Below, in pieces: positions 7,872-27,000 of a DNA stretch of 27,685 bases (position 1 is its first letter; each line of letters begins with the position of its first letter). Below the pieces are notes generated by a model. The model was not told where the DNA came from. It saw nothing but the letters and a program-made list of their open reading frames with translations, and did no database searches. A program made the translations under genes and the position numbers. The stretch covers positions 1-27,685 of IMG/VR virus record IMGVR_UViG_3300020187_000164. One strand, 5' to 3'. Source of the stretch: a virus.

Positions 7872-8279
7872 ATGGCATTTGGAGCAAGACAAATATACCC
7901 TAATGATTTACGACCTAGTGTCGGAATTGGTGTTAATCTACCATTTAGTGGTCCTACTGCTTTTACTCCAAACTATCAAACAAAGGATTCTATAAAAAAT
8001 AATTTAATTAATTATTTATTAACAAATCCTGGGGAAAGAATAGAAAATCCTTCATTTGGTGCTGGTTTAAGAATTTATATTTTTTCCCAAATATCAAGTG
8101 GTAATCTTGAGTTTATTCAAGAAGATTTACAAGAAAAAATAAAAAGTAATTTTCCTGATATTTCTCTTAAATCTGTAGAGGTTTTGCAAAGTATAAACTC
8201 AAATACTATACAAGTAAATATAAATTATAGTATACCTAATACAGGGATAAATGATACTCTAGAATTAAATTTTAACTAA
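7872..8279 (+). CDS. gp25: Baseplate wedge subunit, gp25-like
   Basis: A 135-residue protein of the GPW/gp25 family, which forms the conserved sheath-initiating wedge core of contractile tails along with gp6 and gp53. The diagnostic segment is NPGERIENPSFGAGLRIYIF (52-71), equivalent to the family's 'pGER...P.fG..l...lf'. It is preceded by the helix SIKNNLINYLL and followed by a helix (FIQEDLQEKIKSNF) and a beta hairpin ending the chain. The length matches gp25 (about 132 residues in T4). The upstream gene's last codons supply AAAGGA, one of the few Shine-Dalgarno-like strings in the window, seven bases before the ATG. The stop shares one base with the gp6 gene (TAATG). Confidence 0.9.
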   Translation: MAFGARQIYPNDLRPSVGIGVNLPFSGPTAFTPNYQTKDSIKNNLINYLLTNPGERIENPSFGAGLRIYIFSQISSGNLEFIQEDLQEKIKSNFPDISLKSVEVLQSINSNTIQVNINYSIPNTGINDTLELNFN

Positions 8280-10150
8280 TGGCAGTACAAAATAAAGACA
8301 TAACTTATATTAATAAGGACTTTAATGATATTAGAGCCCAACTTATTAATTTCTCTCAAACATATTTTCCTAACACATATACTGATTTTAGCCCTGCTTC
8401 ACCTGGTATGATGTTTATAGAACAGGCATCTTATGTTTCAGATGTACTATCTTTTTACTTAGATAATCAAATTCAAGAAACTTATTTACAGTATGCTAGA
8501 CAATTTGATAATCTATATGATCTTGCTTACATGTTTAGTTATAAACCTAAAGTAACTGGTTTAGCCGTTGTAGATGTAGATGTATATCAACAGGTACCTT
8601 CTAAAGTTGTAGGTTCCCAAACAGTACCTGATTTTGATTATGCTTTAGAAATCCCAGAAAATACATCGGTTTCTTCAAGAAGTGGTACAAGATTTAATAT
8701 ACAAGAACCAATTGATTTCTCAGTTTCTTCTTCAATAGACCCTACAGTAACTACAATTTCTCAAATATCTTTAGGAGAACCAACTTATTATTTATTAAAA
8801 AAGACTAGAAAAGCAGTTTCAGGTACTATAACTTCTACTAATTTTACTTTAGGTAATTATACTGCCTACCCAACTGTAGAACTTAATGTATCAAATATTT
8901 CTAATATAATAGATATATTAGATTCTGATGGTAATAGATATTATGAAGTAGATTATTTAGCACAAGATTTAGTATATGATAGTATTAAAAATACAAACAC
9001 TAATGATCCTAATAATTATCAAGATGGGGATGCACCTTATATTCTAAAAACAAAATCAGTAAACAGAAGATTTACAACTAGGTTTATAAATGAAAGTACA
9101 TTACAAATACAATTTGGATCAGGAAAACCCCTTCAAACTGATGAAGAAGTTACTCCAAACCCAAATAATGTAGGTCTAGGTTTACCATTTGAACAAAATA
9201 AACTAACAACAGCTTATTCGCCTACTAACTTTATATTTACAAATACTTATGGTGTTGCTCCTTCAAATACTACTTTAACTGTAAGGTATTTAGCAGGTGG
9301 TGGTGTTGTTTCTAATATAGATGCAAATACCCTAAATACTATAGATTCATCAACAGTTAAATTCTTAAACCCAGGATTAAACAATAATATTACAGCAGAT
9401 TTTGTATTTAATTCATTAGCAGTTAATAATCCCATAGCAGCTAGTGGAGGAGGTGGAGGAGATACTATAGAAGAAATTAGACAAAATTCATTATCTAATT
9501 TTAACACTCAACAAAGAAATGTTACAGCAGATGATTATTTAATTAGAGCTTTAAGTATGCCTTCTAAATATGGGATAGTATCTAAGGCATTTGCAGCTAA
9601 GGCATCAACTAAAGACCCAGATGTTATTTTAGATTTATATATTCTAACTCAAGATTCTAATGGTAATTTAACCAAATCTTCAGATGCTATAAAAAATAAT
9701 TTAAAAACCTATATAAATCAATATAGGATGATAGGGGATTCAGTAAATATCAAGGATGCATTTATAGTTAATATAGGATGTGAATTTGATATAATAACTC
9801 TTCCTAATTATAATAATAGTGAAGTATTAACCAAATGTATATCATCAGTAAAAAATTATTTTGAATTACGTAGATGGCAAATTAATCAACCTATTATATT
9901 AAGAGAAATTACTTTATTATTGGATGGAATCCCTGGGGTTCAAACAGTAGCTAGTATAGATATAATAAACAAAGCAGGAACAACTAGTGGCTACTCAGAA
10001 TATGCTTATAGTATCTCGGGAGCAACACAAGGAGGTGTTATTTACCCTTCATTAGATCCTAGTATATTTGAAATTAAATTTCCTAATGATGATATAAAAG
10101 GAAGAATAGTATCTTTAGGTACATCTACTTTTAGTTATGGAGGATATTAA
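8279..10150 (+). CDS. gp6: Baseplate wedge subunit, gp6-like (baseplate J)
   Basis: A 623-residue protein matching T4 gp6 and baseplate J-like wedge proteins in size, position after gp25 and motifs. The N-terminus has the typical helix-rich opening (FSPASPGMMFIEQASYVSDV at ~37-56, LYDLAYMFSYKP at ~79-90). The middle is beta-rich with a Gly-rich linker (AASGGGGGDTIEEIRQNSL, ~382-400) leading into the J core, NVTADDYLIRALSMPSKYG. The C-terminal part carries RRWQINQPIILREITLLLDG and a final beta domain. Gp6 forms dimers that make the inner ring of the baseplate and trigger sheath contraction. The start overlaps the gp25 stop by one base, so wedge partners are made in stoichiometric order. High confidence. 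Confidence 0.88.
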   Translation: MAVQNKDITYINKDFNDIRAQLINFSQTYFPNTYTDFSPASPGMMFIEQASYVSDVLSFYLDNQIQETYLQYARQFDNLYDLAYMFSYKPKVTGLAVVDVDVYQQVPSKVVGSQTVPDFDYALEIPENTSVSSRSGTRFNIQEPIDFSVSSSIDPTVTTISQISLGEPTYYLLKKTRKAVSGTITSTNFTLGNYTAYPTVELNVSNISNIIDILDSDGNRYYEVDYLAQDLVYDSIKNTNTNDPNNYQDGDAPYILKTKSVNRRFTTRFINESTLQIQFGSGKPLQTDEEVTPNPNNVGLGLPFEQNKLTTAYSPTNFIFTNTYGVAPSNTTLTVRYLAGGGVVSNIDANTLNTIDSSTVKFLNPGLNNNITADFVFNSLAVNNPIAASGGGGGDTIEEIRQNSLSNFNTQQRNVTADDYLIRALSMPSKYGIVSKAFAAKASTKDPDVILDLYILTQDSNGNLTKSSDAIKNNLKTYINQYRMIGDSVNIKDAFIVNIGCEFDIITLPNYNNSEVLTKCISSVKNYFELRRWQINQPIILREITLLLDGIPGVQTVASIDIINKAGTTSGYSEYAYSISGATQGGVIYPSLDPSIFEIKFPNDDIKGRIVSLGTSTFSYGGY

Positions 10151-10160: not shown

Positions 10161-11333
10161 ATGGCAGTATATAAATTATTTCCCTTACAAGACGCATCAT
10201 TATATGCATTTTATCCCTTTATGAATACAGGGATAGATTCTATAATCGAAGTAGGTAACTTAAATGTTAATATAAATCCTGTACCACAGGTTTTTAGATA
10301 TTTAATAGAATTTGATCAAGATCAAATTAATGATGTTATACAAAATACAGTTGGTAGCGATATTTCATTTTCAAGTACTTTAAAAGCCTATATAGCTAAT
10401 GCTCAAGGTGTTATATTTGATACTGAAATGGAAATATATCCTGTATCTGGTTCTTGGAATAATGGTAGTGGTACATATTTAGATTCACCTTTTACTACAA
10501 ATGGTGTTAGTTGGAAAGCCCAAAACTTCTCAGGATCCTCTACTTCAGGAGCAAAATATTGGAATACAGATATCCCATCCCTTTCGACTTATGTAACAGC
10601 TTCTTGGCAAACAGGTACTGCTGGAGGTGGAACTTGGTTTACAGGTTCAACAGATACAAATAATCCTAATATTGAGGTTACTCAATCCTTCAAATTAAGA
10701 TCCGAAAAAGATTTAAACGCTGATGTATCAGATATAGTAAATGTATGGTATTCAAGCTCTAATAATATTGGTGGGTTTACTGATATACAAAATAATGGTT
10801 TTATAGTAAAATGGGAAGATGCTATTGAATTTAGTATTGCGGATGCTATCCAACCTATAATGCAATTTTACTCAGTAGATACTAATACTATATACCCCCC
10901 AGTATTAGAAATAAAATGGGATGATTCTAGTTTTGAAACTGGATCTTTACCTGCATTATCAACTTCTGATATATTTGTTGCCTTAGATAACAACCCGGGA
11001 GTATTTTATAGTGAAAGTATTAATAGATTTAGATTAAATTGTAGACCTGATTACCCAGTAAGGGTATTCCAAACCCAATCTATAGATACTATAAATCATT
11101 ATTTACCAAAAGATTCGTTATGGGCTATCAAAGATTTAGATACTAATGAATTTATAGTTCAATTTGATAGTGATTATACTAAAATAAGTTGTGATCCAGT
11201 AGGTAATTATTTTGATGTTTATATGACAGGATTACAACCAGAAAGATATTATAAAATATTAATTCAAACTACCATTAGTGGTAGTACAATTGTTAAAGAT
11301 GATAACTACTATTTTAAAATAGTTAATGGATAA
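10161..11333 (+). CDS. Probable baseplate/virion structural protein, DNRLRE-like opening
   Basis: A 390-residue, beta-rich protein with many Ser, Thr, Asn, Trp and Tyr residues and no signal peptide. The opening (YKLFPLQDASLYAFYPFMNT) and the strands after it resemble DNRLRE-type beta-sandwich modules seen in surface and virion proteins; this resemblance is by eye and tentative. A C-terminal section (~275-385: DIFVALDNNPGVFYSESINR, then LQPERYYKILIQT) looks like a second, fibronectin-like beta domain. It begins ten bases after gp6 behind AAAAAATAAAAC and overlaps the next gene by one base. Its place suggests a wedge-peripheral or gp7/gp8-like structural role, which I cannot prove. Confidence 0.6.
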   Translation: MAVYKLFPLQDASLYAFYPFMNTGIDSIIEVGNLNVNINPVPQVFRYLIEFDQDQINDVIQNTVGSDISFSSTLKAYIANAQGVIFDTEMEIYPVSGSWNNGSGTYLDSPFTTNGVSWKAQNFSGSSTSGAKYWNTDIPSLSTYVTASWQTGTAGGGTWFTGSTDTNNPNIEVTQSFKLRSEKDLNADVSDIVNVWYSSSNNIGGFTDIQNNGFIVKWEDAIEFSIADAIQPIMQFYSVDTNTIYPPVLEIKWDDSSFETGSLPALSTSDIFVALDNNPGVFYSESINRFRLNCRPDYPVRVFQTQSIDTINHYLPKDSLWAIKDLDTNEFIVQFDSDYTKISCDPVGNYFDVYMTGLQPERYYKILIQTTISGSTIVKDDNYYFKIVNG

Positions 11334-11830
11334 TGGCAGAAGAAAGATTAGATCTTAGGAAAGAAATATTTAATAAGGCCCAATATATTAAAACTATAAA
11401 TACTAGTTTTGATGAATTGGGTAATACTACTATTACTGAAGATTTAATTGTTCAACCAACTGTTGAAGAATTCTTTGGATTATACAATACTCTTTTTTAT
11501 GATATACAAGCCCTGGGTGAAACTAATTCACATCAGTATTTAGCTAAAACTAGTGGTGAATATATTAATTTTGATGATGTAAGTGCTGAAGTACAAGCAT
11601 TACAAGCAGAAATAGCGCAACTAAGAGAAAATTTACTTAAAGCCCAAATGGATTTAATATCAGCTGAAGTTGCACAATCAGGAAATGAAGAAAGTAATGT
11701 TATAATGGCAAAAGCAACAAAAGAAGTACAAGAAGCAAATGCTCAATTAGTAAATACAAGTACAGCATTATCACAAAATACGCAAACATCAACTGGAGGA
11801 GTTAGTAGTGGAACATCAAGTAACTATTAA
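11333..11830 (+). CDS. Coiled-coil protein of the baseplate cluster
   Basis: A 165-residue protein. The N-terminal half has a motif EEFFGLYNTLFYDIQALGE (45-63) followed by NSHQYLAKTSGEYINF (65-80), which I recall from similarly placed proteins in marine phages without a known function. Residues ~81-145 are a Gln/Glu/Ala-rich coiled coil (SAEVQALQAEIAQLRENLL). The last ~20 residues are a Ser/Thr/Gly tail. The one-base overlap with the upstream stop (TAATG) implies coupling. A trimeric coiled coil would suit a connector between the baseplate and the huge next protein; that is inference. No Cys, signal peptide or membrane segment is visible. Confidence 0.6.
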   Translation: MAEERLDLRKEIFNKAQYIKTINTSFDELGNTTITEDLIVQPTVEEFFGLYNTLFYDIQALGETNSHQYLAKTSGEYINFDDVSAEVQALQAEIAQLRENLLKAQMDLISAEVAQSGNEESNVIMAKATKEVQEANAQLVNTSTALSQNTQTSTGGVSSGTSSNY

Positions 11831-11860: not shown

Positions 11861-14800
11861 ATGAAACTAGAAACAACAATAACCCCAATTTCCCCTGATA
11901 CTTTTGAGTATCAAACTTATTCTAACTCGGATGAAAATTTAATTATTCAATCTGAATTAGATACTGTATTTTCTTCTTCCATTGACTATATTGAATATTA
12001 TATATACGATCAAAATAAAGATTTAATATATCCAAATGAAACATTACCTTTACTTGATTATGATGTAAGAGAAGGTGATGTGTTGTTAAATCCTAGTTCT
12101 AATTTAGAATCTTTAGGTTTTGATATAGGAGTGTATAATATATCTTATTCTTTTTATAGAAAAAGAGCAGCCTCCTCAATCAGTCAAAAATACTTTATAT
12201 CCAGTATATCATCAGATAGAACTGAAATTAGACTAGATAGTAATATTATTGAAAATAGTGATATAATTTCATCTGTAAATGATTTTATTCAATATAGAGA
12301 ATCATCAACTTATTTTGTTGATTTTTATCTTAATTTTGGAAATAATAAAGTAACAATTGCTAATAATATAAAATTAGAAACTGAAGAAGGAGTAGATCCA
12401 ACAGTACTAATTAAATTATATGAACCTCTACCTTTAGAATTTAGTAATAAATCTGAATTATGGATAGTTGAATTACTTTCTTCTCCACAAGCTTATAAAG
12501 TAGATTTTCCATTTGAACCTACTATAGAAGAGGATTTTACTTATATTGCTGGACCTAACTATAATTTAAATATTATAGGAGAAACAGCATCCCCAGGAGA
12601 ACAATTTTCATACAACACATTAATTAACTCAGACTTAACAAGTTCGATTAATCAAATTCAAAGTTTATTAAACGAAAAAGAAATTAACATAAATATTAAT
12701 TATGAAAATTTTGGTAACTTTGTAAACTTTAGCTCTGCTAAAACACGTTTAGAAAATTTTTATTATAAAGTAGATTTAATACAATCTTCTAGTGAACAAT
12801 TAACAAACTTTTTAGACCAAGTAGCAACAGATACTACTTTAACAAATGCTTATAGTTCAAGTGTAGCTTCATTAACAGGTGCTATAGATAAAATAATTAA
12901 GAATTTTGATGGGTATGAATATTTCCTATATTTTAATAGTGGTTCATCAACTTCTTATCCTAAATCTAATACAGAACCACCTTTTATTTTATATCCAACT
13001 TCAAACCCTGAAGTACAAACGTGGATAACATCATCACTAGCCACAGCTGCTAATTATGATGAAAATAATAGAGATTGGTTATATAACTCTATACCAGAAT
13101 ATTTAAGAGATGACCCAGCAAACAGAAATTATGAACTATTTGTTGATATGGTTGGTCAGTATTATGACAATGTTTGGACTTATACTAAAGATATTACAAA
13201 TAAATTTGACGCAGATAACCGTTTAGATTATGGTATTTCAAAAGATCTAGTTTCAGATGCTATTAAAGATTTTGCAATTAAATTATATTCAAACAATTTT
13301 AATACAGATGATTTATTTACAGCTTTTCTAGGACTTACCCCTTCGGGTAGTGCATTTCCTTTCCCTAATATAACGGGTTCGGTTGTAGATGGTGGTGGAA
13401 ATTTAGACATACCTACTGGGTATGAGTACGTAGATACTAAAATATCTGCTTCAAATGATATAGTCCCATTAGACGATGTTAATAAGAGCATATATAAACG
13501 AATATACCATAATATTCCGTATTTACTCAAAACTAAGGGTACAATAGCTGGTTTAAGAGCACTAATTACTTCTTATGGGATACCAGATACTATTTTAAGA
13601 ATAAGTGAATTTGGGGGTAAAGATAGAAATGAATCACAGGATTATGACTTAAAACAAGATGTGTTTAATTATTCATTTGATACAGGAGAAGATTCTGATA
13701 ATTTTGTATCATCTTCCATGGTACCAAATACTTTATTTCCAAATCAGGATTCGGGTAACGACCAAGTGGGTACAGTTCAATTTAGATTTAAATCCCATGG
13801 TATTCCATCTGCTGAAAATAATATTGCTAGTAGTGATATTAGATACTCACAATCTTTATGGTTAACAGACCGTACCCCATTAGAACCAACTTGGAATGAT
13901 AACGCATTAGGAGCAGCTGTAGTTTTAGAATATACAGGATCAGGATTTGTATCTGGATCTTACTCAGGTTCAATAGCAAGTCCATATGATACTTGGGGTA
14001 CATTAAAATTTTACCCAGATATAGTTTATAGCCCTGATGTAAGTTGTAGTATATATGCCCCTTTCTTTAATGAAGATTGGTGGTCAGTTCAATTAACATA
14101 TAACGGAGGTGGTCAAGCTGGAGCTTCAACTGTTACAGCATCATTATTTGCAGCCAATGAGATTGATGGTAAAATAGGATTTAGTGGGTCTGATGAGAAA
14201 TTAAATTTAGATGGTAGATCCTGGAATAGAAGTGAACATTTTAAAATAAATGATAATGCTAATCATGTCATAAATAATACTACATATACACCTTTTTCTG
14301 GTTCATTCCAAGAATATAGAATGTATACCCCTATGATCAGTGAAAGCAATTTCTTTGATTATACTGTTAATCCTTATTCTAATGAAGGAAATGGTATTAA
14401 TTCCACCCCAGACCAACAATTTTTTAGAGCAGCTTTAGGTAGTCAATTAGATACAGGTAGTAGAACATCAATCCATCCTAGAGTAACAGGATCAGATGTA
14501 CAAATTACACAATCATTTTCAAATGGTAATAGCTCATTTTATATAGAAACAACTTTTGACCCTTGGGTTACAAATGTAGAAGATATATTCCAAGATCAAG
14601 CACCTGTAGGTATTAAAAATAGAATTACAGATAAAATTCAAACAGAAAAAACAATATTATCTGAAGCCCCATATGGCTTTCCAAACCCAACAGCTTCAGT
14701 ACCTGAAATTTCAAGTTTGAATAATGATACTCAAACACTTTCCCCAATGGAATCTATGCAGGAGTTATCATTTATTAGTCAAAGTTATACTCCTAATGTT

Positions 14801-17800
14801 GATTATTTAGAGGTAGCATTTTCTCCATCAAATCAAATTAATGACGATATTAATGCTCAATTAGGGTACTTTAACTTAGGTGAGTTCATTGGAGATCCAA
14901 GATTTGTTTCTTCATCCTTATACACTTACCCTGATCTAGACAGATTAAGAAATGCATATTTTGAAAAATATATGGATAGCTACGATGTAGTTGATTTTGT
15001 TAGGTTAATTAAATTCTTTGATAATTCATTATTTAAAATGATTAAAGACTTTACTCCGGCTAGAACTAGTTTATCTTCTGGTGTGGTAGTAAAACAACAT
15101 ATCTTAGAAAGAAATAGACAAAGACCGGCACAAGTAACATCATCATTACATGATTATGAAGGTTTAGTAGTAAATGCACCTAAAGACTATTCATCAGGTT
15201 CATCAGATTTTCCACAATATTCAACCCAAGGTTCTTCTATATATAAATTTAGTGGTGGAACGGGTGGTTCATTTGAAAGGTTTAATGGTGAACAAACATA
15301 TGGAATACCATTATATGGTCAAATGTTAGGTAGAGATGGAGGAATCCCATTTACTGGTACAGAATTAGAAGGCAATATTATAAGTAATAGCGTTTTGCAA
15401 CCTATGAATAATGGTACTTTTAATGGAATTATAAATGGGGTTATTAAAAGTTCTGGATTCTACCCTGTAAATAAACCAAATTCTTATATTTTGGGTACTA
15501 TTAATTTAGAAATTAAAATTAATGGTGGTGTATTTACGGATATTTCAGTGTTTTCTACAACCTCTAATAATATGCTTCTTAGCCCAGGGAATACTATTAC
15601 AATACCTGGTACCTCTTTTGGTCAACCTCAAGGAGAAATTGTTATTGAACTAACACCTTCAGTAATAACCCCATCTCCTTTTTGGAATGCAACATTACCT
15701 TATAATAGATTTGGTGTAACACAAAGCTGGCAAGATGGAAATGAAGGATCAATATTAAATACAACTAACTTTAATCAAAGTAGTTCACAATATATTAGTG
15801 GATCATATTTAGGCCCTAGAAAATTCACAAAAGATAACCAATCAGAATTTTATGATGGTATCTTTAGTGGCTCTATGATAATAGTAACAACACAGTCCTT
15901 AAATCCCGATTGTGATCCATATTTAAATGCTAATGATACACCTGTAGTATATAAACCTATATTTTTTGGATTACCAACACCAAATAACGCAGGACAAGAG
16001 GCAGTAGTAACCCAAGAGAGTTTTAATAATCAATTAAATTCCCCACCTTCAGGATATGCGTGGATTGCATCTCAAGTAACTAATGTTGGAGGGGGAGGAA
16101 TCCAACAAGTACAAACTATTAAATTAAGTCAAAATGATATTACAGGAACAGAAGTAATTAATTATTTAGATGATTTTGACAATTTAAGAATTATATTTGG
16201 TGACGCTACAATACCTTATAATGAAACTGCAACCGAATATATTATAACTGGTAGAACACTTTTTGCAGATCATATTATATTACAAGTATCCCAAACAGAA
16301 GGAAATAATTATTTCCAAACTATTAGTGATTCTATATCTCCAATAGATTATTACCCAATTACAAGTTCAGTTAGTGGAGGTTCAATGCAATGGAGTTTAA
16401 CCCAAGCTACAGATTATCATACCCCTTTAGTAAATTCTGGAAGTAATGATAACAACCAACAAGGTGTATTTTTAAATACTCAAGAAAATACACAAGAACA
16501 AAATTTCTTTTATTATAATAACAATACACCTTTAGCTAAAGATGCATTAGGTTTCTTTAATCCGGGCACACAGGGAACAACTACTAGTAAAATATTTGGG
16601 TTAGGTTTTTATAAAAACGGTGCTTATACTATACCATATACACCAAATATTCCTTGGTATATAGAGGCTACAATTAAATATAGTGCATCTTTTAACGCTG
16701 ATGCTGAAGGTGAAATAACTGATGGAGGAATTTACCATAAAGGAACCAGCTACATCGAAAACTCTACTTTAACAAATCAAAACTTTTTATTAGAAAATAA
16801 TAGTACATATGGATTTTATGTTAGTACTCAGGATTTTGATTCAGCAGTTTTAGCAACAGCAGCATCAGATCTTACCACTTCAGATAACCAAATATTTTAT
16901 TCAGGAAATAATCCATTTTATCCTTTATCCAATATAATTAGTAACCCAGCACTTTATTCAGATTCTAGTTTATCAACCCCTATAACTCTTATCTCGGGTA
17001 AATATTATAAAGTCTCTAATTTATTTGAAACAAATGGTACAGATCAAGATTATTTTGTTATAAAAATTGCAAATGTAAATGGTACACTAAAAGGACTTTT
17101 ACAAACTGGTAATAGACGACCAGCTATCGGTAAAGCAGCAACTAAATCCTTAATTGTATTAGGTGAAACTAAAGAATATTTTAGACCTGCTCCTAGAAGT
17201 GTATCTGGACTAGGTCAAGTATTATTTAATGGTAATAATTACAGAGCTAACATCCCAGGTAATTCAGGTTCCGGAGTTCCTGTAACAACATATGGTGGTC
17301 ACCCCAAATTTAAGGTAGGAACTACAAATTCTATGGACTGGTCCTTCCCAAAATTAAAAATAAAAGGAACAGACCCAGGATTAAGTGGGGGAGGAACAGC
17401 AGGTTTAATCCCATTTTCCGGTAGTTTGGCTTTATTTAATAATTCTGATTTTGATGTTAATTTTTCAGCTTTTGGGGGTGGTAGTACTAATTATACAGAT
17501 TTTTTAGAGGTTACTCAAAACCTCTCAATTAATCGAAAAGGAACAGGATATCAGTATGATGGGTCTATTTATGTAAAATGGAATGGAACTAATGGTTTAG
17601 CAACTGATATATACGAAGGTGCTTCACCCCCAGGTGGACAACAAGGTTTTGATAGATACAGTGGTAATACTAGTGTAGAAGTATACGCTACAATTGATGC
17701 AAATAATACATTTGCTGATTTTAAAGTAGAACTTATTGAGCAAATATGGAATGGATCTACCACCTCCCCTATTTTTGGACTTGAAAATGTATTAATGACC

Positions 17801-20800
17801 CGAACTTCTACTAATGGTGTAGTGGAATTTAATGGAGATCTTGCAGATTTATTTAATACCCTAAATGGTTTAGTACGAGTAACAGGTTCACCAACCTACT
17901 CCAGATTTCTTTGGAGAGTACAAAATAATGACAATAATTCTCAAGACTATGAATTTCAATTAGATGAATTTAATTGCCAAGTTAAATACTTCCAAACTGC
18001 ACAATCAACTACCGAAGTAAGCTACCCATATAATGGTGGTTTTGGTGAGATGTGGAGAGGAGCTTATAACACCCCCAATTTAAGAGGTTTTCAAAGTGGA
18101 GATCAAAACCAATTTCTTGCTGGAGGTTCAACCGGAAATTATTATTCTGAATGTGTAGTTAATGTTTATTTAAAAAGAACAGGATCAGATGTTAACGGAG
18201 ATTATGATTATATTATAACATCATCTGTTTATGACCCCGCAACAGGAGAGGGTGGGTACTCAGGTTCAATACACTCAGGATCAACAATAAATTTTCAAGA
18301 TGATTTCCCAGTAACTGTTTTTAATGATAATCCTCCTTCTGCTACTACAATGTCTACATATACCAACCCAGGAGATATGTATTATGTAGAATATGAATTT
18401 ATGGATTACAAACCTGGGGTACTTGGTGGGATACCACAATTAGGACAGTTTGTAGGATTTCAGACTTCAAATGTTTCCCCTCAAGAAACACAAATAGATA
18501 TTACCTCAACAGGACCTGGTGGGGCAAGTGGTAATTTTGATCTTACACCAAGTGTTCTTTTAAGAACTTCAAGTCTTTTTCCATCCCCTGTAGATACAGG
18601 TACGGAAGTTTTTAGACAGTCTTGGGTTGTACCAAGTCAAGCCTCTGTATCAACAGCAACAGTTTCAGGAATTTATAATGGTAATTTTAGTGCTAATGAC
18701 ATTCATAGATTTTCTATAGAAGTAGCTAAAGGAAATAATTTAGGTTCTGGGTTAGTAATACAAGAATTTACAGCAAGTATATTTCCTGCAAATTCAATGT
18801 GGGCACCTATTCCTGATCCTTCATCATATGGTAATTTTAGAGCACCAATTAATACTGAATTTATAGTTCCAACTTATTATGCTGGTGCCTTACCATTTAA
18901 CTTAGCGTTAGATTGTCAACCTTTATTAAATAACTACATCTTACAAAGACCAAGTGAATATATAATGGATGTAGATTATACAAATGAATCAGGACCTATT
19001 ATACCAGTAAATCAGGAACAAATATTAGAAAATAAAGCAGTTAAAGCCGCAGTACCAGATTCTAACTATACTTCACTACGTTCTATAAACCCAAGATATG
19101 ATGGTGTAAAATCAACAAGTAAAAAATTAAATGTTTGGAGTGTAGGAGATACAGGTACATATGGTAAAAACCCAACAATAGAATTAAGAGATGCATTTTT
19201 CGGGTATTTTAATGATATATCAGATCCATATCCAAATATTAATGCTTTAACTCAAGTTAATGTAAACTATTTAATTGATGAACAAGGTAATGCTTTACCA
19301 CCTTCATTAAATGATCAACTTAGTATTGATACTTTTGATGCTGTTTTTCCAAATACAACAGTAGGTAAATTAGCAATTAAGGATGGAAAAAATAGATATA
19401 CTTCTTTTTCAGCTCCTGCACCTATTAGTCGTACAATGGAATATGTAACACCTATATGTTATTCACAAAATTCCGGAAACAATTATAGTACTTCAATTCC
19501 ATTATCTGGATCTGGATATATTTCAAGATATGATAATAATGATGAAAATTCAGTAAAATTTGGTCAATTCTCAGCTGCTGGTACAAGTTCAATTTCGAAT
19601 GGTAACCCTATTGATCAGCAATCAGTAAGTTATAGAATTAACCCTACTGAAGCTATTACCACACCTGCACCAGAGGTTGTAGATGTTTATAATATAGCAG
19701 GACATGAGGGTACAGCTTGGTACAACCCTGATGGTACTCTTGGATGGAATCAAGGCGTAGGACAAGAATTAACCAACCAACAAATTGTATCAATCCAACA
19801 TTCTGTTGTAACCACTTTTGTAAGTGAAACAAATGGAGTAAGAGATGAATTAGATTTAACATTTAAAATGTTTACGGGTTCAAATGCTGATACACAAATA
19901 CCATTTAACCTTGAAGGTATTGATTGTAAGGTATATACAGAAACAGGTCAGGTTTATTTACTCCAAGATGTAGATACTTATGGTTGGTTTACTTATGAAA
20001 ATTTACCTACTTCACAAATATTAAAAGATAGAATAGGTTCTCTCCTGGGTATTAATAGATGGAGATGGTCAAGAGTACCTATCCCAGGAGGAGGAATTGT
20101 ATGTAAAGTTGATTGGGAAATGTTTGAAACTTTATTTGACTTAGGTTTAATGAGAGAAAGATCACCTAAAAATGGATCAGGGGTTCAAGCCTTAGAATGG
20201 ATATTTAAAGCTAATTCCGGAAATTATAACATAAAATCAGGTGATGAAATTAGATGGGAATTTTCAGGTTCATTTAAAGATGCTAGAGGTGGTTACCGTC
20301 AAGGTTATTTCTTCCCTAATTCATATGAAGGAGCTTATACACCTGCTATGATAAAAGGTATGGGTGCTAATGATTACTTATTAGATGAAGCTAATAAAGC
20401 AGCAGCACCTTATTGGGTATTTTCCGGATCAAATGATTATTCATTTATAGAAATGCAATCTCCAAACTTTAATGAAGCATATGGTACTGGATTTTACCAA
20501 GGTGATTTACCTTACGAACCAGGATTTTCAGAATATTTTCCTGGGAACGTAGAGCCAAAAACAACTTCTTTTGATAAAATTGAAAACCCTATAGAATTTA
20601 AAGAAGGTGATGAAATAAGATTTGGTAATAATGAATCTTTTGCATATACTGTTTTAGAAGTATTTGCACCTTCTGAAAATGTTAATAGTAGTGGGGCAGC
20701 TAGAGTTAAACTTAGACTAAATAGACCAGTAGACACTTCAATTAATAAAGATTTCTTTTTAGTTAGAAGAAAAGTTCCATCTCCTCAGTCTCTTTATTTG

Positions 20801-21079
20801 GAAACCCCATTTCCTTATGGTATATTATCAAGTGGAAGTGTTAGTAAAACAATTTTATCTACAGGTTCAGTTGATTTTGCTTTAACATCTTCGGGTGCTG
20901 CACAAACAGGATCATTCCCTCTTATTGATGGGGATGGTTTATATACAGGTTCAATAAGTGAAGTAGAAGCATTATCAACACCAGGTATTTTATACCCAGA
21001 TTTCCCAACGGAATATCTAATACAAAGTGCATCTATAATAGTAAATGATTTAATTTCTAAAGGAATAATAGAATCTTAA
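11861..21079 (+). CDS. Giant multidomain virion protein (3072 residues)
   Basis: One uninterrupted frame of 3072 codons, a third of the window. Residues 1-~330 are beta-rich. Residues ~400-600 are helical and tail-associated in style (DWLYNSIPEYLRDDPANRNY; IYKRIYHNIPYLLKTKGTIA; LITSYGIPDTILRISEFGG). Residues ~635-845 look like a concanavalin/LamG sandwich (VGTVQFRFKSHG, SFQEYRMYTPMISESNFFDY). Next comes a helical conserved block at ~1026-1090 (FDNSLFKMIKDFTPARTSL, VVVKQHILERNR). The remainder is long beta-rich Ser/Thr/Asn/Gly sequence with one conserved-looking island, RPSEYIMDVDYTNESG (~2364). I recall the N-terminal and 1026-1090 motifs from large structural proteins of environmental T4-like phages. 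A baseplate-peripheral protein that anchors or is itself an adhesin is likely. No terminator or late decamer precedes it; it is 30 bases after the coiled-coil gene. Confidence 0.7.
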   Translation: MKLETTITPISPDTFEYQTYSNSDENLIIQSELDTVFSSSIDYIEYYIYDQNKDLIYPNETLPLLDYDVREGDVLLNPSSNLESLGFDIGVYNISYSFYRKRAASSISQKYFISSISSDRTEIRLDSNIIENSDIISSVNDFIQYRESSTYFVDFYLNFGNNKVTIANNIKLETEEGVDPTVLIKLYEPLPLEFSNKSELWIVELLSSPQAYKVDFPFEPTIEEDFTYIAGPNYNLNIIGETASPGEQFSYNTLINSDLTSSINQIQSLLNEKEINININYENFGNFVNFSSAKTRLENFYYKVDLIQSSSEQLTNFLDQVATDTTLTNAYSSSVASLTGAIDKIIKNFDGYEYFLYFNSGSSTSYPKSNTEPPFILYPTSNPEVQTWITSSLATAANYDENNRDWLYNSIPEYLRDDPANRNYELFVDMVGQYYDNVWTYTKDITNKFDADNRLDYGISKDLVSDAIKDFAIKLYSNNFNTDDLFTAFLGLTPSGSAFPFPNITGSVVDGGGNLDIPTGYEYVDTKISASNDIVPLDDVNKSIYKRIYHNIPYLLKTKGTIAGLRALITSYGIPDTILRISEFGGKDRNESQDYDLKQDVFNYSFDTGEDSDNFVSSSMVPNTLFPNQDSGNDQVGTVQFRFKSHGIPSAENNIASSDIRYSQSLWLTDRTPLEPTWNDNALGAAVVLEYTGSGFVSGSYSGSIASPYDTWGTLKFYPDIVYSPDVSCSIYAPFFNEDWWSVQLTYNGGGQAGASTVTASLFAANEIDGKIGFSGSDEKLNLDGRSWNRSEHFKINDNANHVINNTTYTPFSGSFQEYRMYTPMISESNFFDYTVNPYSNEGNGINSTPDQQFFRAALGSQLDTGSRTSIHPRVTGSDVQITQSFSNGNSSFYIETTFDPWVTNVEDIFQDQAPVGIKNRITDKIQTEKTILSEAPYGFPNPTASVPEISSLNNDTQTLSPMESMQELSFISQSYTPNVDYLEVAFSPSNQINDDINAQLGYFNLGEFIGDPRFVSSSLYTYPDLDRLRNAYFEKYMDSYDVVDFVRLIKFFDNSLFKMIKDFTPARTSLSSGVVVKQHILERNRQRPAQVTSSLHDYEGLVVNAPKDYSSGSSDFPQYSTQGSSIYKFSGGTGGSFERFNGEQTYGIPLYGQMLGRDGGIPFTGTELEGNIISNSVLQPMNNGTFNGIINGVIKSSGFYPVNKPNSYILGTINLEIKINGGVFTDISVFSTTSNNMLLSPGNTITIPGTSFGQPQGEIVIELTPSVITPSPFWNATLPYNRFGVTQSWQDGNEGSILNTTNFNQSSSQYISGSYLGPRKFTKDNQSEFYDGIFSGSMIIVTTQSLNPDCDPYLNANDTPVVYKPIFFGLPTPNNAGQEAVVTQESFNNQLNSPPSGYAWIASQVTNVGGGGIQQVQTIKLSQNDITGTEVINYLDDFDNLRIIFGDATIPYNETATEYIITGRTLFADHIILQVSQTEGNNYFQTISDSISPIDYYPITSSVSGGSMQWSLTQATDYHTPLVNSGSNDNNQQGVFLNTQENTQEQNFFYYNNNTPLAKDALGFFNPGTQGTTTSKIFGLGFYKNGAYTIPYTPNIPWYIEATIKYSASFNADAEGEITDGGIYHKGTSYIENSTLTNQNFLLENNSTYGFYVSTQDFDSAVLATAASDLTTSDNQIFYSGNNPFYPLSNIISNPALYSDSSLSTPITLISGKYYKVSNLFETNGTDQDYFVIKIANVNGTLKGLLQTGNRRPAIGKAATKSLIVLGETKEYFRPAPRSVSGLGQVLFNGNNYRANIPGNSGSGVPVTTYGGHPKFKVGTTNSMDWSFPKLKIKGTDPGLSGGGTAGLIPFSGSLALFNNSDFDVNFSAFGGGSTNYTDFLEVTQNLSINRKGTGYQYDGSIYVKWNGTNGLATDIYEGASPPGGQQGFDRYSGNTSVEVYATIDANNTFADFKVELIEQIWNGSTTSPIFGLENVLMTRTSTNGVVEFNGDLADLFNTLNGLVRVTGSPTYSRFLWRVQNNDNNSQDYEFQLDEFNCQVKYFQTAQSTTEVSYPYNGGFGEMWRGAYNTPNLRGFQSGDQNQFLAGGSTGNYYSECVVNVYLKRTGSDVNGDYDYIITSSVYDPATGEGGYSGSIHSGSTINFQDDFPVTVFNDNPPSATTMSTYTNPGDMYYVEYEFMDYKPGVLGGIPQLGQFVGFQTSNVSPQETQIDITSTGPGGASGNFDLTPSVLLRTSSLFPSPVDTGTEVFRQSWVVPSQASVSTATVSGIYNGNFSANDIHRFSIEVAKGNNLGSGLVIQEFTASIFPANSMWAPIPDPSSYGNFRAPINTEFIVPTYYAGALPFNLALDCQPLLNNYILQRPSEYIMDVDYTNESGPIIPVNQEQILENKAVKAAVPDSNYTSLRSINPRYDGVKSTSKKLNVWSVGDTGTYGKNPTIELRDAFFGYFNDISDPYPNINALTQVNVNYLIDEQGNALPPSLNDQLSIDTFDAVFPNTTVGKLAIKDGKNRYTSFSAPAPISRTMEYVTPICYSQNSGNNYSTSIPLSGSGYISRYDNNDENSVKFGQFSAAGTSSISNGNPIDQQSVSYRINPTEAITTPAPEVVDVYNIAGHEGTAWYNPDGTLGWNQGVGQELTNQQIVSIQHSVVTTFVSETNGVRDELDLTFKMFTGSNADTQIPFNLEGIDCKVYTETGQVYLLQDVDTYGWFTYENLPTSQILKDRIGSLLGINRWRWSRVPIPGGGIVCKVDWEMFETLFDLGLMRERSPKNGSGVQALEWIFKANSGNYNIKSGDEIRWEFSGSFKDARGGYRQGYFFPNSYEGAYTPAMIKGMGANDYLLDEANKAAAPYWVFSGSNDYSFIEMQSPNFNEAYGTGFYQGDLPYEPGFSEYFPGNVEPKTTSFDKIENPIEFKEGDEIRFGNNESFAYTVLEVFAPSENVNSSGAARVKLRLNRPVDTSINKDFFLVRRKVPSPQSLYLETPFPYGILSSGSVSKTILSTGSVDFALTSSGAAQTGSFPLIDGDGLYTGSISEVEALSTPGILYPDFPTEYLIQSASIIVNDLISKGIIES

Positions 21080-21128: not shown

Positions 21129-21797
21129 ATGGGATATTTAAATAACGCAGTAATAACAGTTGATGCTATCTTAACAACCAAAGGTAGAGAATTGTTAGCT
21201 AGAAATGATTCTTCATTTCAAATTACACAATTTGCATTAGGAGATGATGAAATTGATTATACATTATACAATCCAAATCACCCTTCGGGTTCAGCTTATT
21301 ATGGAGAGGCAATTGATAACATGCCTCTGCTAGAAGCATTTCCAAGTGAATTACAAATAATGAAATATAAGTTAACTACCTTACCTAGAGGTACAGCAAA
21401 ACTACCAGTATTAGATTTAGGTTTTGCCGCTATTACTCTAAAACAAGGTGCTCAATTAGCTGTAACACCTCAAACTCTAAATTATTTAGGTAATGAACAG
21501 GTATTTGAAACATCAGGATATAGTGCAACAATTGGAGATGTAAGATTAATGAATACATTTACAGGACAAGGTATCCAAACAGAAGCAGCAACATCAGCAA
21601 ATGCAACTGCAACACAAACACTTGGTACTAATGTAACAAAAACAATTATAGGTACTCAATTTAATTTAACTTCAACAACAGTTAATACATTATTTGGGTC
21701 AAATACTCAACTAAGAACAACATTAACAGTAACAGGGTTAGATAGTGGTGCACGTATAACAATTCCAGTAACAATAACTCAACAAGCATTAAAATAA
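21129..21797 (+). CDS. Conserved virion structural protein
   Basis: A 222-residue protein. The N-terminal half is well ordered: GYLNNAVITVDAILTTKGRE (2-21), QITQFALGDDEIDYTLYNP, GSAYYGEAIDNMPLLEAF and MKYKLTTLPRGTAKLP. I recall this combination from many environmental tailed phages, where it is labelled only as structural. The C-terminal half is Thr/Ala-rich and beta-like (TTLTVTGLDSGARITIPVTI), resembling an immunoglobulin-like or decorating domain. No enzymatic motif is visible. It heads a new transcription unit behind a tandem pair of late-type decamers, suggesting strong late expression. It may be a baseplate or fibre-attachment protein; its role is unknown to me. Confidence 0.62.
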   Translation: MGYLNNAVITVDAILTTKGRELLARNDSSFQITQFALGDDEIDYTLYNPNHPSGSAYYGEAIDNMPLLEAFPSELQIMKYKLTTLPRGTAKLPVLDLGFAAITLKQGAQLAVTPQTLNYLGNEQVFETSGYSATIGDVRLMNTFTGQGIQTEAATSANATATQTLGTNVTKTIIGTQFNLTSTTVNTLFGSNTQLRTTLTVTGLDSGARITIPVTITQQALK

Positions 21798-21803: not shown

Positions 21804-22886
21804 ATGGCATTTAAAAGATTAGATCCTGAAGATTTTATAGTAAGTTCCGATTCGGTAACTTCAACAGTATGGAGTAATAATTCCCCATCACTTAATACCT
21901 ATTTTTCATCTTCAACACAAAAAGAAGGAACATCAGGTCCTTATTATTTAAATGTGTACCAAGCAGATTCCACAACAGATGAAGCTGCAGTACAATTTCA
22001 AATAGCATATGCTAATAAAAATGGTGGGGGTGGTGTAAATTTTGACTCCTCAGTACCCGGAAAATCTCCAACAACAACTATTTATGGGCAATACAGAACA
22101 TTAGTATTAGAAGATGAAAATTCTAGTTTTGTTTGGGGAGACTCATATACAGGTAGTGCAGATAATGATTTTTATGTTATTAGTATTGAAAGAGCAAGAT
22201 ATAAACAATCTTTATTACCTGGTTCTTTAAATTTAGTATTATCAAGTTCAAATAATAACGCAGCAAATACTACTGTTGAATTAACAGATGATTCAAATAT
22301 GGTAACTCTACCAACTTATTATGGTACACAAAGAGCTTACCAATTAATCTCAGGATCAAATGGTAAATCATACCAAGCAATTGCTGGAGGAACAGGAACA
22401 GGGTATACATCTGATAATGGTTCTTATGGTTTAGTACTACCAGATATTTCTACTATACTATTAAACGCTGCAGCCTTAAATAATAATACAGGAACAGGTG
22501 GTGGTATAAACATTCAAACAGATTCTGATGTTGATAACTTTGGAGATAATCCAACTAGGTTATATGATGCCATAAGTGGTTCATTTGCATTTGAATCCAC
22601 CATACCTAATATATTTGAATTAAATTCTCAAGAAACACTAACATCAGATTATGTTTTCATTAGAGCAAGAAATTCAGAATATAACTACACAGAAAATCCA
22701 TCATTTATATCAGGGTCAACTGGTGAAGTAATTTATCCTTACTTTATAAATAATCCTCAAACCTTCCCAACAACTGTAGGTTTATATAATGATTCAAATG
22801 ATTTATTAGCTGTAGCTAAATTATCAAGACCAATACAAAAAGATTTTACAAAAGAAGCTCTAGTACGAGTGAAATTAGATTTCTAA
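21804..22886 (+). CDS. Virion structural protein, paralogue A
   Basis: A 360-residue beta-rich protein with a Ser/Thr/Asn/Gly composition typical of tail appendages. It starts FKRLDPEDFIVSSDSVTSTV and ends with NYTENPSFISGS ... TTVGLYNDSNDLLAVAKLSRPIQ. Both ends have counterparts in the next gene (QFNSQDLIISPFEV at the start; NYTQNPSSITGS and TTIGLYDGNSQLLAIGKLAKPLQ at the end), so the two arose by duplication. The central part (FVWGDSYTGSADNDFYVISI, then RARYKQSLLPGSLNLVLSS) is not shared by eye. It starts six bases after the previous stop behind AATAATAAAAT. It may be a baseplate or fibre-connector component, inferred from position just before the long fibre. Confidence 0.6.
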   Translation: MAFKRLDPEDFIVSSDSVTSTVWSNNSPSLNTYFSSSTQKEGTSGPYYLNVYQADSTTDEAAVQFQIAYANKNGGGGVNFDSSVPGKSPTTTIYGQYRTLVLEDENSSFVWGDSYTGSADNDFYVISIERARYKQSLLPGSLNLVLSSSNNNAANTTVELTDDSNMVTLPTYYGTQRAYQLISGSNGKSYQAIAGGTGTGYTSDNGSYGLVLPDISTILLNAAALNNNTGTGGGINIQTDSDVDNFGDNPTRLYDAISGSFAFESTIPNIFELNSQETLTSDYVFIRARNSEYNYTENPSFISGSTGEVIYPYFINNPQTFPTTVGLYNDSNDLLAVAKLSRPIQKDFTKEALVRVKLDF

Positions 22887-22891: not shown

Positions 22892-24001
22892 ATGAGCGCT
22901 TACAAACAATTCAATTCACAGGACTTAATAATATCTCCATTTGAGGTAAATAAATCTTTCTATTATGAAGGAAATGCTGCCCTAATTCAACCTGATGTTG
23001 AGATAGATAGATTTTTGGGTCGAAATGGTGATTATCTATTATCTGGTAGTATAATGACGGGTCAAATACCCGCGTATAAAAAACCACAGGTATTAGTATA
23101 TGATTCAATTCAACAACTATACTATCAAAATTATATATCAAGTAGTGGTGGATTTACTCAAGATGCAATTACTTCTAGTATTGTTATAGGAGCAACTCCT
23201 GAAGGAAATAGAAGAGTAGGTGCAGTACAAAATACTAATTACTACGATTACCCTCAAACTAGTTTATGGCCTAGTAGAAATTTCCCAACACCATCTCCTC
23301 TTACATCTTCGGTTCCCATCGGTGTAATTTCTATTCCATCAAAATTATGGGGTGATTATGTCCAACCACATTCTTTCTATTTAGAAGGAATTTCTGGTTC
23401 TATTAAAGATGATGGAGAAGGTAGATTATTATATAAATCAACAAATGAGAATTCCGTATATAATTACATGTCAGGTAATATAATATATGAACATGGTGTA
23501 GTAACAATTTTTGATTCACATTTACCTGGAGCAATAAGTTCTGGTGGTGGTGATCAAACTGATTTTTATGGTACTGCCATTTATGGAACTAGTTTATATG
23601 GTGGTAATTCTTCACCTTGGGGTGATACTTTAGAATTTATAGAATCTTGGGTATTAGAAGAGGTTACTATGTCTTTCTCTAGTTCTTATACTTTATATGA
23701 AACCCAATATAAAGCAACAATCTCAGAAAACGAATTTAATTATACACAAAATCCCAGTTCTATTACAGGCAGTCAAATTCCTACAGTATTTTCAAGTAAT
23801 AGTGATAGTACAAATTGGGAAAATACAGCATCTTCAGGTGTCCGTTTAGATACTATTACAGGATCATATTTTTCTCCTTACATAACAACTATAGGTTTAT
23901 ATGATGGTAATTCCCAGTTATTAGCAATAGGTAAATTAGCAAAACCCCTTCAATCTTCACAAACAACAGATACAACTATTTTGGTGAATATTGATAGGTA
24001 A
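22892..24001 (+). CDS. Virion structural protein, paralogue B
   Basis: A 369-residue beta-rich protein related to its upstream neighbour through the opening (YKQFNSQDLIISPFEVNKSF) and the C-terminal ~90 residues (NEFNYTQNPSSITGS, ITTIGLYDGNSQLLAIGKLA). The middle has Tyr/Ser/Gly-rich turns (DFYGTAIYGTSLYGGNSSPW) unlike paralogue A. An ATG four bases upstream (22888) opens another frame that stops after 18 codons, so 22892 is the start; it lies five bases after the preceding stop. Two neighbouring paralogues before a fibre gene would suit hetero-oligomeric connector subunits or specialised adaptor copies, which is inference. Confidence 0.6.
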   Translation: MSAYKQFNSQDLIISPFEVNKSFYYEGNAALIQPDVEIDRFLGRNGDYLLSGSIMTGQIPAYKKPQVLVYDSIQQLYYQNYISSSGGFTQDAITSSIVIGATPEGNRRVGAVQNTNYYDYPQTSLWPSRNFPTPSPLTSSVPIGVISIPSKLWGDYVQPHSFYLEGISGSIKDDGEGRLLYKSTNENSVYNYMSGNIIYEHGVVTIFDSHLPGAISSGGGDQTDFYGTAIYGTSLYGGNSSPWGDTLEFIESWVLEEVTMSFSSSYTLYETQYKATISENEFNYTQNPSSITGSQIPTVFSSNSDSTNWENTASSGVRLDTITGSYFSPYITTIGLYDGNSQLLAIGKLAKPLQSSQTTDTTILVNIDR

Positions 24002-24029: not shown

Positions 24030-27000
24030 ATGGCTCAAGAATTTAAATATCAATCTGAAATACAGCAAGGTCAGATAATACAATCATGGCATGTTTCTCA
24101 GTCTGTTGAAGCTTTTACAGGAGAAGAAGCTTATGATATAACTATATCAGGTTCTTCAACTTTAACGGGTTCAATGTATGTTGATCCTAGTAAGTTATTG
24201 GCAACCCCACAAACACATTATTTATCATATAATAACACAACAGGTCAAGTTTTTAAATCAGAATTAGGACCAGAAAGTACTTCAGGTACAAGTGGTACTA
24301 GTGGTACTTCAGGTACAAACGGTACATCAGGTACAAACGGTACTTCAGGTACAAGTGGTACATCAGGTACAAGTGGTATTTCGGATAGATATGCAACAAC
24401 TTCAACAACTACCTATACTTTAGGAGCATCAACTCCCTGTTTAACCGTTGAAACAGGATTAGCTTATACAACAGCACAATCAATTATTATAGTACATGAC
24501 ATTAACAACTTCCAAGAATGTGAAGTTGACACTTATAATCCTGCTACAGGAGTACTATGTTTTACAAATATAACAAGAGTAGAAGGTTCAGGAACTTATT
24601 CCGATTGGGAAATAAACTTAGATGGAGCTTCAGGAGGTGATGGAACGTCGGGTACTTCTGGAACTAGTGGCACAAGTGGCACATCAGGTACTTCGGGTAC
24701 TTCTGGAACTAGTGGTACGACAGGTACATCAGGTACTTCAGGTTCAAGTGGCACAAGTGGTACTTCAGGAATAAATGGTCCAACTGGAACAGGTGGTACA
24801 AGTGGTACCTCAGGCACTTCAGGCACTTCAGGAACAAGTGGAACAGACGGAACTTCAGGAACTTCAGGAACAGATGGCACATCAGGTACTTCAGGTACAA
24901 ACGGTACATCTGGAACTTCAGGTACTTCGGGTACAGATGGTACAAGTGGTACAAGTGGTACCAGTGGTACAAGTGGTACAAGTGGTATTTCGGATAGATA
25001 CTCAACAACCTCTACAACTACCTATACTTTAGGAGCATCAACTCCCTGTTTAACCGTTGAAACAGGATTAGCTTATACAACAGCCCAATCTATTATTATT
25101 GTTTATGATATAGATAATTTCCAAGAATGTGAAGTTGACACTTATAATCCTGCTACAGGAGTATTATGTTTTACAAATATAACAAGAATAGTGGGCTCAG
25201 GAACTTATTCATCTTGGGAAGTTAATTTAGATGGAGCTTCAGGAGGTGATGGAACATCGGGTACTTCTGGAACTAGTGGTACGACAGGTACATCAGGTAC
25301 TTCGGGGATAAATGGTACAGATGGAACTAATGGAACTAGTGGCACATCAGGTACTTCAGGTACAAGCGGTACAGACGGAACTTCAGGTACCTCAGGAACA
25401 GATGGCACATCAGGTACTTCAGGGATAAATGGTTTAAGAGGAGCTAATGGAGCTATTACTTTTGAATATGAATATAACAACACCCCTATTACACCGGGTA
25501 CTGATGGTGATGGTAGTTTAAGATTTAATAGTATAAACTTAGATCAAGCTACAGCAGCATACATAGATGAAAATGATATCAATGGTAATGATATATCTGA
25601 ATTTTATGATTCATTATCTAATGCAGACGATGCACGTGTCCAAGTTGCCAAAACCTCAGACGCAGCGTCATTTGCTTTATATAAAATTACGGCTATAACC
25701 GATAATACAACATATTATACTCTTACTATATCAGAAGAGGCATCCTCAGATACACAACCATTTAATGCTACCGATAATGTATTTTTAAGTTTTGGAGTCT
25801 CAGGAGCTGCAGGCACATCAGGTACTTCAGGTACAAGCGGTACAGACGGAACTTCAGGTACCTCAGGAACAGATGGTACCTCAGGAACTTCAGGAACAAA
25901 CGGAACTAGTGGAACTTCTGGAACAGATGGAACTAGTGGTACGTCAGGTACTTCAGGAACAGATGGTACTTCAGGAACAAGTGGTACCGATGGTACTTCA
26001 GGTACTTCAGGAACAAGTGGTACATCAGGTATAGACGGAACAAGTGGAACTTCAGGAACCGATGGTACAAGCGGTACTTCAGGTACGAATGGAACTTCAG
26101 GAACAAGTGGTACTTCAGGTACTTCAGGTATTGGAACATCAGGAACATCAGGAACATCGGGTACAAGTGGGTTTGTAGAAGGAGCTACAGCATATGGTGA
26201 AATATTTGAAGTTGGTGGATCAGCAATATCTATTGGTACTTCATATCAAGGATGGAATACAGGAACTCAAGGAAGATCTTTATCTTTAACTTTTACTGCT
26301 GGAACATTCTTAACAGCAGACACATATACAATTCCACAATCAGAATTAGCTGGAGATTATTTAATAAATGCTTCATATACTTTCTTTGCTGGTGGTTCTG
26401 ATACTTTAATTGCAGCAATATTTGTAAATGGTATAGAACAAATCCCTACAACAACTAAAAGATCATTTCAAAATAATGCTAGAGGTTCATTTTCTATTAC
26501 AGATATATTAGAATTAGCAAATGGTGATGTTGTAGGAATTAGATTTAAAACTGCAAATGGACCCACAAACTTTACACCTATTAATATCTCATTTAATATG
26601 AGTAAATTAGTAGGGTATGGAGATCAAGGACCAGCAGGTACATCAGGAACTTCGGGTAGAGACGGAACATCAGGTACTTCAGGAATAAAAGGAACATCAG
26701 GTACTTCAGGTACAAACGGTACATCAGGTACTTCAGGTACTTCAGGTACTTCAGGTACAAGTGGTACATCAGGTATAGATGGAACAAGTGGAACTTCAGG
26801 TATAGACGGAACAAGCGGAACTTCTGGAATTGATGGCACAAGTGGTACTTCAGGTATAGATGGAACTTCAGGTACTTCAGGTACTTCAGGTACTTCAGGT
26901 ATAGATGGAACTTCAGGTACTTCAGGTACTTCAGGTACTTCAGGTATAGATGGAACTTCAGGTACTTCAGGTACTTCAGGAACAGATGGTACAAGTGGAA

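Follow-up and report, generated by a model that had tools for sequence, protein, structure and literature searches.

A 3,072-residue composite protein in a contractile-tail baseplate operon, encoded by one gene or two among related phages

How a single viral gene comes to encode more than three thousand residues, and which part of the virion its product represents, is the question raised by a 27,685-base IMG/VR virus record, IMGVR_UViG_3300020187_000164, which is the window of this analysis and the part of the genome that it covers. The giant gene (11861..21079, plus strand) is a single intact open reading frame (ORF), running from ATG to TAA with no internal stops, and specifies 3,072 amino acids (aa) with a calculated mass of 339 kDa and a calculated isoelectric point of 4.4. 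To our knowledge, it is larger than any T4 virion protein; T4 gp7 has 1,032 aa. Among 58 complete, deduplicated IMG/VR loci, 37 held one fused ORF of 1,525-3,265 aa, and the giant ORF is thus no accident of assembly. An earlier note on this DNA had read the gene as a single chain of several parts, which was borne out by the intact 3,072-codon frame, carried by close relatives too. The protein is a composite of a conserved core, a predicted LamG/ConA-type beta-sandwich, a fast-evolving beta-rich middle, and a C-terminal module (C module). The explanation that best fits the whole, and that we consider probable, is a baseplate wedge 3 (BW3) core with an outward-facing sandwich and middle, joined to a C module that was once separate, with evolutionary switching between one gene and two.

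Modules of the giant chain

Whole-chain hidden Markov model (HMM) scans with Pfam and PHROGs gave nothing significant (no Pfam family at E <= 1), and nothing significant was found with NCBIfam when the chain was scanned as four pieces. In these library scans, no one known single-function family extended over the whole chain; a match of that kind was what the earlier note had set against a composite. Self-BLAST revealed no internal duplication, and literature searches returned no title or abstract start describing the protein's family.

Conservation at the N-terminal end covers residues 1-600 and 961-1112, in which the proposed wedge core consists of two blocks. Residues 241-600 (12581..13660), a predicted helical stretch proposed as a gp7/gpI-type BW3 core, were 90-92% identical to their counterparts in the related loci L021 and L030, with a ratio of nonsynonymous to synonymous change (dN/dS) of about 0.1, and residues 961-1112 (14741..15196), which continue the core beyond an insert, were 95% identical to the same two relatives. 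Core relatives reached down to 25-39% identity in Microcystis phage Mel-JY01, record LR756508, and Flavobacterium phage vB_FspM_immuto (MW353176; hereafter immuto), and in immuto the counterpart of residues 961-1112 directly follows the core. The second block had been noticed earlier and was confirmed at these residues, with helices predicted at 1026-1038 and 1043-1063 at low model confidence. The earlier description of the N-terminal region as helical held in part: helices were predicted for residues ~250-600, again at low confidence, and residues 1-240 (11861..12580) were mainly a beta domain, with a predicted local distance difference test (pLDDT) score of 73-88 over residues 41-220. The model of the whole N module (residues 1-1112; 23 sequences in the alignment; mean pLDDT, 49.8) was good just at residues ~41-220 and most of 631-840 (mostly 63-87). 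In L121, a locus from a Flavobacteriaceae metagenome-assembled genome (MAG), part of the N-terminal beta domain matched a separate 292-aa ORF (L121:3482-4360) just upstream of the core ORF (L121:4363-8043), and the N-terminus may therefore also be split off; in two further MAG contigs (L120:7829-12883 and L122:6851-13030), some 450-780 more residues precede the core, which suggests that the chain has been extended at its N-terminal end as well.

Residues 601-960 (13661..14740), a LamG/ConA-type insert and linker, separate the two core blocks. The LamG-like sandwich of the earlier note was recovered in the predicted model, in which residues ~601-866 matched LamG-, pentraxin-, and ConA-type folds: PAPP-A (Z 14.8 over 197 residues; root mean square deviation, 4.3 Å), the pentraxin PTX3 (Z 13.3), CBA120 tailspike 2 (TSP2; Z 12.8), and a sialidase CBM40 (Z 11.9). 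Foldseek alone gave weak matches for this region (best E 0.017), and no LamG-type family HMM was found, either with Pfam in the whole protein at the limit given above or with NCBIfam for residues 621-1100 at E <= 5. Since the immuto match passes directly from window residue 591 to residue 976, the LamG stretch is an insert in the core relative to immuto. Mel-JY01 and LR756508 fill the same position with poorly alignable sequence, so that the stretch could equally have been lost in immuto or gained here; the LamG match was not detected in MAG locus L119.

Conservation along the chain was highly uneven. In 21 long fused relatives, identity per 50 residues was 0.41-0.90 over residues 1-1150, collapsed at 1151-1250, remained low and gappy to 2300, was high again at 2351-2500, and was moderate at 2851-3072. 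Residues 1113-1300 (15197..15760) are hypervariable, and the first gene of 10 early-split relatives ends there, a median of 141 aa past the core; residues 1301-2340 (15761..18880) constitute the fast-evolving middle. In the comparison of the window with L021, dN/dS was 0.06-0.12 in the core, 0.38 in LamG, 0.55 in residues 1113-1300, 0.60 in residues 1651-2100, and 0.12 and 0.31, respectively, in C1 and C2, the two conserved blocks of the C module. The underlying dN and dS values were 0.05 and 0.45-0.61 in residues 1-600, 0.27 and 0.70 in the LamG stretch, 0.035 and 0.60 in residues 961-1112, 0.36 and 0.66 in residues 1113-1300, 0.62 and 1.04 in residues 1651-2100, 0.09 and 0.74 in C1, and 0.17 and 0.56 in C2 (the dN/dS table is numbered by the first member of each pair, and pairs with the window alone are quoted). 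In no block of the comparison between the window and L021 did dN exceed dS; LamG and the middle change fast, and positive selection is not proven.

The C module spans residues ~2341-3072 and comprises the two conserved blocks plus a tail peptide: C1 (residues 2341-2500; 18881..19360), and C2 with the C-terminal tail peptide and then the stop (residues 2861-3072; 20441..21079). About 1,900 further beta-rich residues had been proposed for the chain; the C-terminal model, which spans residues 2073-3072 (44 sequences; mean pLDDT, 71.7), agreed with this over its length, being mostly strands and loops. Its alignment, A6, held 44 of 60 C-module rows, the other 16 having been dropped by eye, mostly for a differing C-terminal end. 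Fibre parts had also been proposed, but searches of Pfam, PHROG, and PDB gave no convincing sequence match for the C-terminus. The one hint of a fold there was a weak, possible C1q/TNF-like jelly roll at residues 2564-2837 (19550..20371; best Z 8.5, typical 7), with matches to the phi812 central spike (Z 8.5) and the cyanophage A-1(L) short fibre (Z 7.6), a level possibly reached by chance; Foldseek on this region gave a best E of 0.016, alongside other folds. The whole C-terminal model, compared by Foldseek with PDB and BFVD, had no convincing match, and a PDB profile search with the C module gave no meaningful one. Pfam and PHROG scans of all 44 members of this alignment, and likewise of all 67 members of the core alignment, gave scattered matches with at most five members per family, which were read as chance.

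Neither the C-terminal 1,972 residues nor the C-terminal 742 residues matched any of 50,697 phage records, among which a split-form C protein (L096) found just four immuto records. Immuto carries part of the C module on a gene of its own, of 403 aa (two comparisons; E 1.5e-4 and 3e-5); the module was not detected in Mel-JY01, LR756508, L120, L121, or L122. The immuto gene, immuto35A_162 (L002:18572-19783), carries part of the C1 block of this baseplate-region module, and its annotation as a "putative nucleic acid binding protein" is probably wrong.

A putative wedge core

The giant gene belongs to a contractile-tail baseplate operon, in which gp25, gp6, and two further genes precede it. All four upstream genes lie on the plus strand. 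The gp25-like sheath initiator, or baseplate wedge 1 protein (BW1; 7872..8279; 135 aa), matched Pfam GPW_gp25 (E 3.5e-10; 40 bits, over the cut-off of 27.2), and the gp6/J-like baseplate wedge 2 protein (BW2; 8279..10150; 623 aa) matched a PHROG baseplate wedge subunit (E 8e-13) and TIGR02243 (E 3e-20, below the curated cut-off); a profile of 11 relatives of the BW2 protein also matched a solved gp6 structure (E 1.2e-5). A conserved 390-aa protein (10161..11333), found at the same position in relatives, and a conserved 165-aa protein (11333..11830), found there in most relatives, follow. For the 390-aa protein, there was no meaningful PDB match and no gpI-like signal.

A place after gp25-gp6-type genes is shared with the BW3 proteins T4 gp7, P2 gpI, XM1 gp17, and pyocin PA0619, and for gpI the likeness may extend to a sequence block. 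Residues 557-585 (13529..13615) form a KxKGT...YGIP...EFGG block with invariant residues, which hhalign aligned to the KGT block of P2 gpI. The comparison of 67 core sequences with 10 P2 gpI relatives scored 29.95 (E 0.002), and the best of 200 column shuffles scored 22.75; with five more distant relatives added and near-copies removed, the score was 29.67 (best of 300 shuffles, 25.59). Controls with the reversed gpI profile, the 390-aa neighbour, and gp6 scored 14.4, 17.4, and 18.4, respectively. The core alignment, A3, consisted of 67 of 89 available rows, and the P2 gpI relatives were taken from named records.

Several results weigh against a gp7/gpI-type core. The hhalign probability was 13-14% over 33-112 columns, with a confident part of 33 columns; the global mode gave no signal for the core against gpI (score 1.72, within shuffles), and T4 gp7 gave no hhalign signal against the core. 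Pfam PF09684 (Tail_P2_I) had no match in the window protein (E <= 10) and was absent from the 25 families listed, of 34 in all, that matched core-alignment members. PDB profile searches with the N module and with the core gave no meaningful match. The motif itself is partly generic, because the gpI profile also matched designed helical repeats at the KGT block (E 4.8e-5). The helical core was modelled mostly below pLDDT 50, and structure comparison hardly probed it, since the VIA rows for the N-module model were taken up by the LamG domain. The known BW3 proteins are 176-1,032 aa long, and the two extra genes that separate gp6 from the giant gene in the window have no parallel in P2 or T4. The wedge parallel drawn in the earlier note for the N-terminal part thus keeps its gp7/gpI-type gene position and a KGT block that matched P2 gpI above all column shuffles. 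When these two lines are set against the weak hhalign probability, PF09684, gp7, and the generic motif, a gp7/gpI-type BW3 wedge role of the giant core appears likely from the sequence evidence, and membership in that group less so. The earlier note was right that parts are joined in one chain, and a wedge part is probably among them. Nothing observed pointed to its gp10 parallel, although no comparison was made with gp10 directly.

In the explanation that we favour, the giant gene product would be BW3, the wedge protein that lies outermost in a contractile-tail baseplate, in the role of T4 gp7 and P2 gpI. Residues 241-600 and 961-1112 would constitute the conserved core on a gp6-like ring, presumably with one copy per wedge and six per virion; in XM1, (gp16)2-gp17 is described as corresponding to (gp6)2-gp7, with the 242-aa gp17 at one copy per wedge (PMC10457771). 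The LamG/ConA-type sandwich and the beta-rich middle would face outward and may bind host-surface glycans or carry receptor-binding parts. Receptor-binding proteins are described as attaching at the baseplate periphery to BW3 (T4 gp7, A511 gp104, PA0619, and P2 gpI) (PMC10811340).

The giant protein might instead be a large peripheral adhesin or tail-fibre-type tail-tip protein encoded after BW3, like A511 Gp106 or Vp4 Gp120, with the true BW3 encoded by the 390-aa or the 165-aa gene. Such an arrangement is described for Deep-Blue and Vp4, in which BW3 comes directly after BW2 and is followed by a large protein with carbohydrate-binding modules (CBMs) (PMC11406892); the 390-aa gene directly follows gp6 in the window, and no library match links the giant protein to gp7 or gpI. 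The gpI signal lay in the giant core, however, and not in the profile of the 390-aa protein, the neighbour compared besides gp6, and the giant core shows a degree of conservation that would be unusual in a host-range fibre, being extremely conserved. We therefore regard this alternative as unlikely.

Recurrent switching between one gene and two

A total of 101 loci were reduced to 96 with a near-full N module, to 85 after deduplication at 97%, and to 58 in which the giant gene and the next conserved gene were both complete; the 27 incomplete loci (19 cut and 8 without the downstream anchor) were not counted. Besides the 37 fused loci, 21 were split. L086, among the 22 loci first called split, was counted as fused because one ORF holds its C module too; L026 (fused) and L099 (split) stayed in the count despite an undetected C module. 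Of the 37 fused loci, 36 had the C module within the one ORF, and of the 21 split loci, 20 had it in a second ORF. The fusion of elsewhere-separate parts suggested by the earlier note is supported for the C-terminal module, for which immuto and 21 of the 58 complete relatives have a gene of its own; LamG, by contrast with immuto, is inserted within the core.

A quick maximum-likelihood tree was calculated for the N module, without bootstrap (62 rows: 38 fused, including the window; 22 split, including immuto; and 2 unlabelled). On it, the fused/split label required 8 changes, with 7 of them forced by well-supported branches, and shuffled labels averaged 18.1 changes. Switching is therefore recurrent yet clustered, and all fused forms of >2,500 aa fell in one clade. 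The 21 second ORFs each had an ATG start (ATGGC in 15), stood in the three frames relative to ORF1 in 7, 6, and 8 cases, and had at most 13 open codons upstream; the ATG starts in three frames and the short upstream open stretch rule out sequencing error or frameshift as the cause of the split genes. The fused chain of L038 aligned to ORF1 of L051-L053 up to residue ~1447 and, from residues 1468-1472, to residue 2 of their ORF2, a clean junction. Through L051-L053 and L038/L043, where it is precise, the old gene boundary maps in the window, across weak similarity, to residues ~1748-1766 (17102..17158), within the fast-evolving middle. Both outgroups that have the C gene, immuto and L119, are split, but either direction of change would fit, the immuto branch being long and L119 lying outside the tree.

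The joining of two genes argues, indirectly, for contact between their products, which would place the C module at the baseplate. The module would have been, or in relatives would still be, a separate virion protein beside the core; if the core and the C module were both anchored in the baseplate, one chain or two would serve equally, and evolution could have switched between them several times. Ordinary modular mosaicism, in which recombination made a chimeric structural protein with a middle that is mostly filler and a fusion of no special consequence, would fit the poor conservation and variable length of residues 1301-2340 and the persistence of both the one-gene and the two-gene forms, but C1 and C2 at the far end stay conserved whether fused or split, and we judge it improbable. 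A polyprotein that is cleaved close to the old gene boundary, to yield separate virion proteins, would recall the two separate products of split relatives, yet fused forms persist over a large clade; we consider it the least credible alternative.

Relatives, neighbouring genes, and known parallels

Residues 1-1100 had six matches among the 50,697 phage records: the four immuto records, Mel-JY01, and an uncultured 484-kb phage. Two overlapping IMG/VR scans yielded 26 and at least 80 loci, the second with 566 relatives among 599 pattern matches, and one scan of bacterial and archaeal genomes yielded six contigs, all in MAGs (one Winogradskyella, one Flavobacteriaceae, one Gammaproteobacteria, and three other bacteria). 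Together with immuto, the MAG assignments lean to flavobacteria, probably marine ones, as hosts, a phage contig binned with a MAG being no proof. The Gammaproteobacteria and Microcystis cases indicate that the wider family extends beyond flavobacteria.

The order gp25, gp6, 390 aa, 165 aa, giant, 222 aa, and 360 aa was kept around the giant gene in relatives, within contig reach, with two exceptions: a C-module gene may precede the 222-aa gene, and L003, L004, and L120-L122 showed no 165-aa gene. The 165-aa protein (window 11333-11830) has a strongly conserved core, LYN.LFYDI..LGETNSHEYL, and belonged to no known family in Pfam and PHROG scans. The conserved 222-aa neighbour (21129..21797, plus strand) served as the downstream anchor of the region. 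Two more genes lie beyond it (window 21804-22886 and 22892-24001), the products of which are C-terminal paralogues (30% identity; E 2e-8); in Mel-JY01 (L003), five consecutive genes match the first of these products, each covering its C-terminal part. A gene for a collagen-like fibre, at least 1,218 aa long (window 24030-27683), then runs off the contig, with GTSGTSG/GTDGTSG repeats and small interspersed non-repeat domains; the long minus-strand open frames in the same interval are by-products of the collagen-like repeat. Rfam and tRNA scans of the window gave no matches.

Decorated BW3 proteins and fused or split tail proteins are already in print, and the giant protein is a larger case; its size, the LamG position, and the recurrent fusion and fission are new here. 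Immuto has the same gene order, a core 37% identical, and a next gene that carries part of the C1 block, but it is far shorter and has two genes, immuto35A_161 (1,265 aa; annotated "hypothetical protein") and the 403-aa immuto35A_162, and no LamG insert. The Mel-JY01 protein WWT39511 and the LR756508 protein have the core in common and further sequence at the LamG position (26.9 and 29.1% identity), but they are 1,336 and 1,400 aa long, and the C module was not detected in them. By its description, Bacillus phage Vp4 Gp119, a BW3 that binds host cells, is enlarged with carbohydrate-binding-type domains that Deep-Blue Gp177 (341 aa) lacks, and the Deep-Blue counterpart of Vp4 Gp111 is a pair of proteins, Gp188 and Gp186 (PMC11406892). 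Gp119 differs in having 831 aa and CBM folds other than LamG, and downstream-gene fusion is not mentioned in the account given of it (PMC11406892). For the injection system AlgoCIS (Alg12/Alg11), the gp7-like part has been described as a hotspot for re-engineering by evolution, and domain IV of Alg11 consists of two CBMs (PMC8894135); as described there, that system is bacterial and its fusion partners are others, whereas gp6 stays separate in the window phage (PMC8894135).

Dozens of related uncultured phages would thus carry a wedge-type protein that varies by LamG insertion and by repeated fusion and fission with its neighbour, and matched one-gene and two-gene relatives are now at hand for structural work. 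More tentatively, the protein may be anchored at both ends, by the wedge core and by a virion-binding C module, with a hypervariable loop of ~1,200 residues and the LamG head forming a host-facing fringe of the baseplate. If so, host recognition would reside in the wedge itself, besides or instead of a separate fibre, in a chain that toggles between one gene and two.
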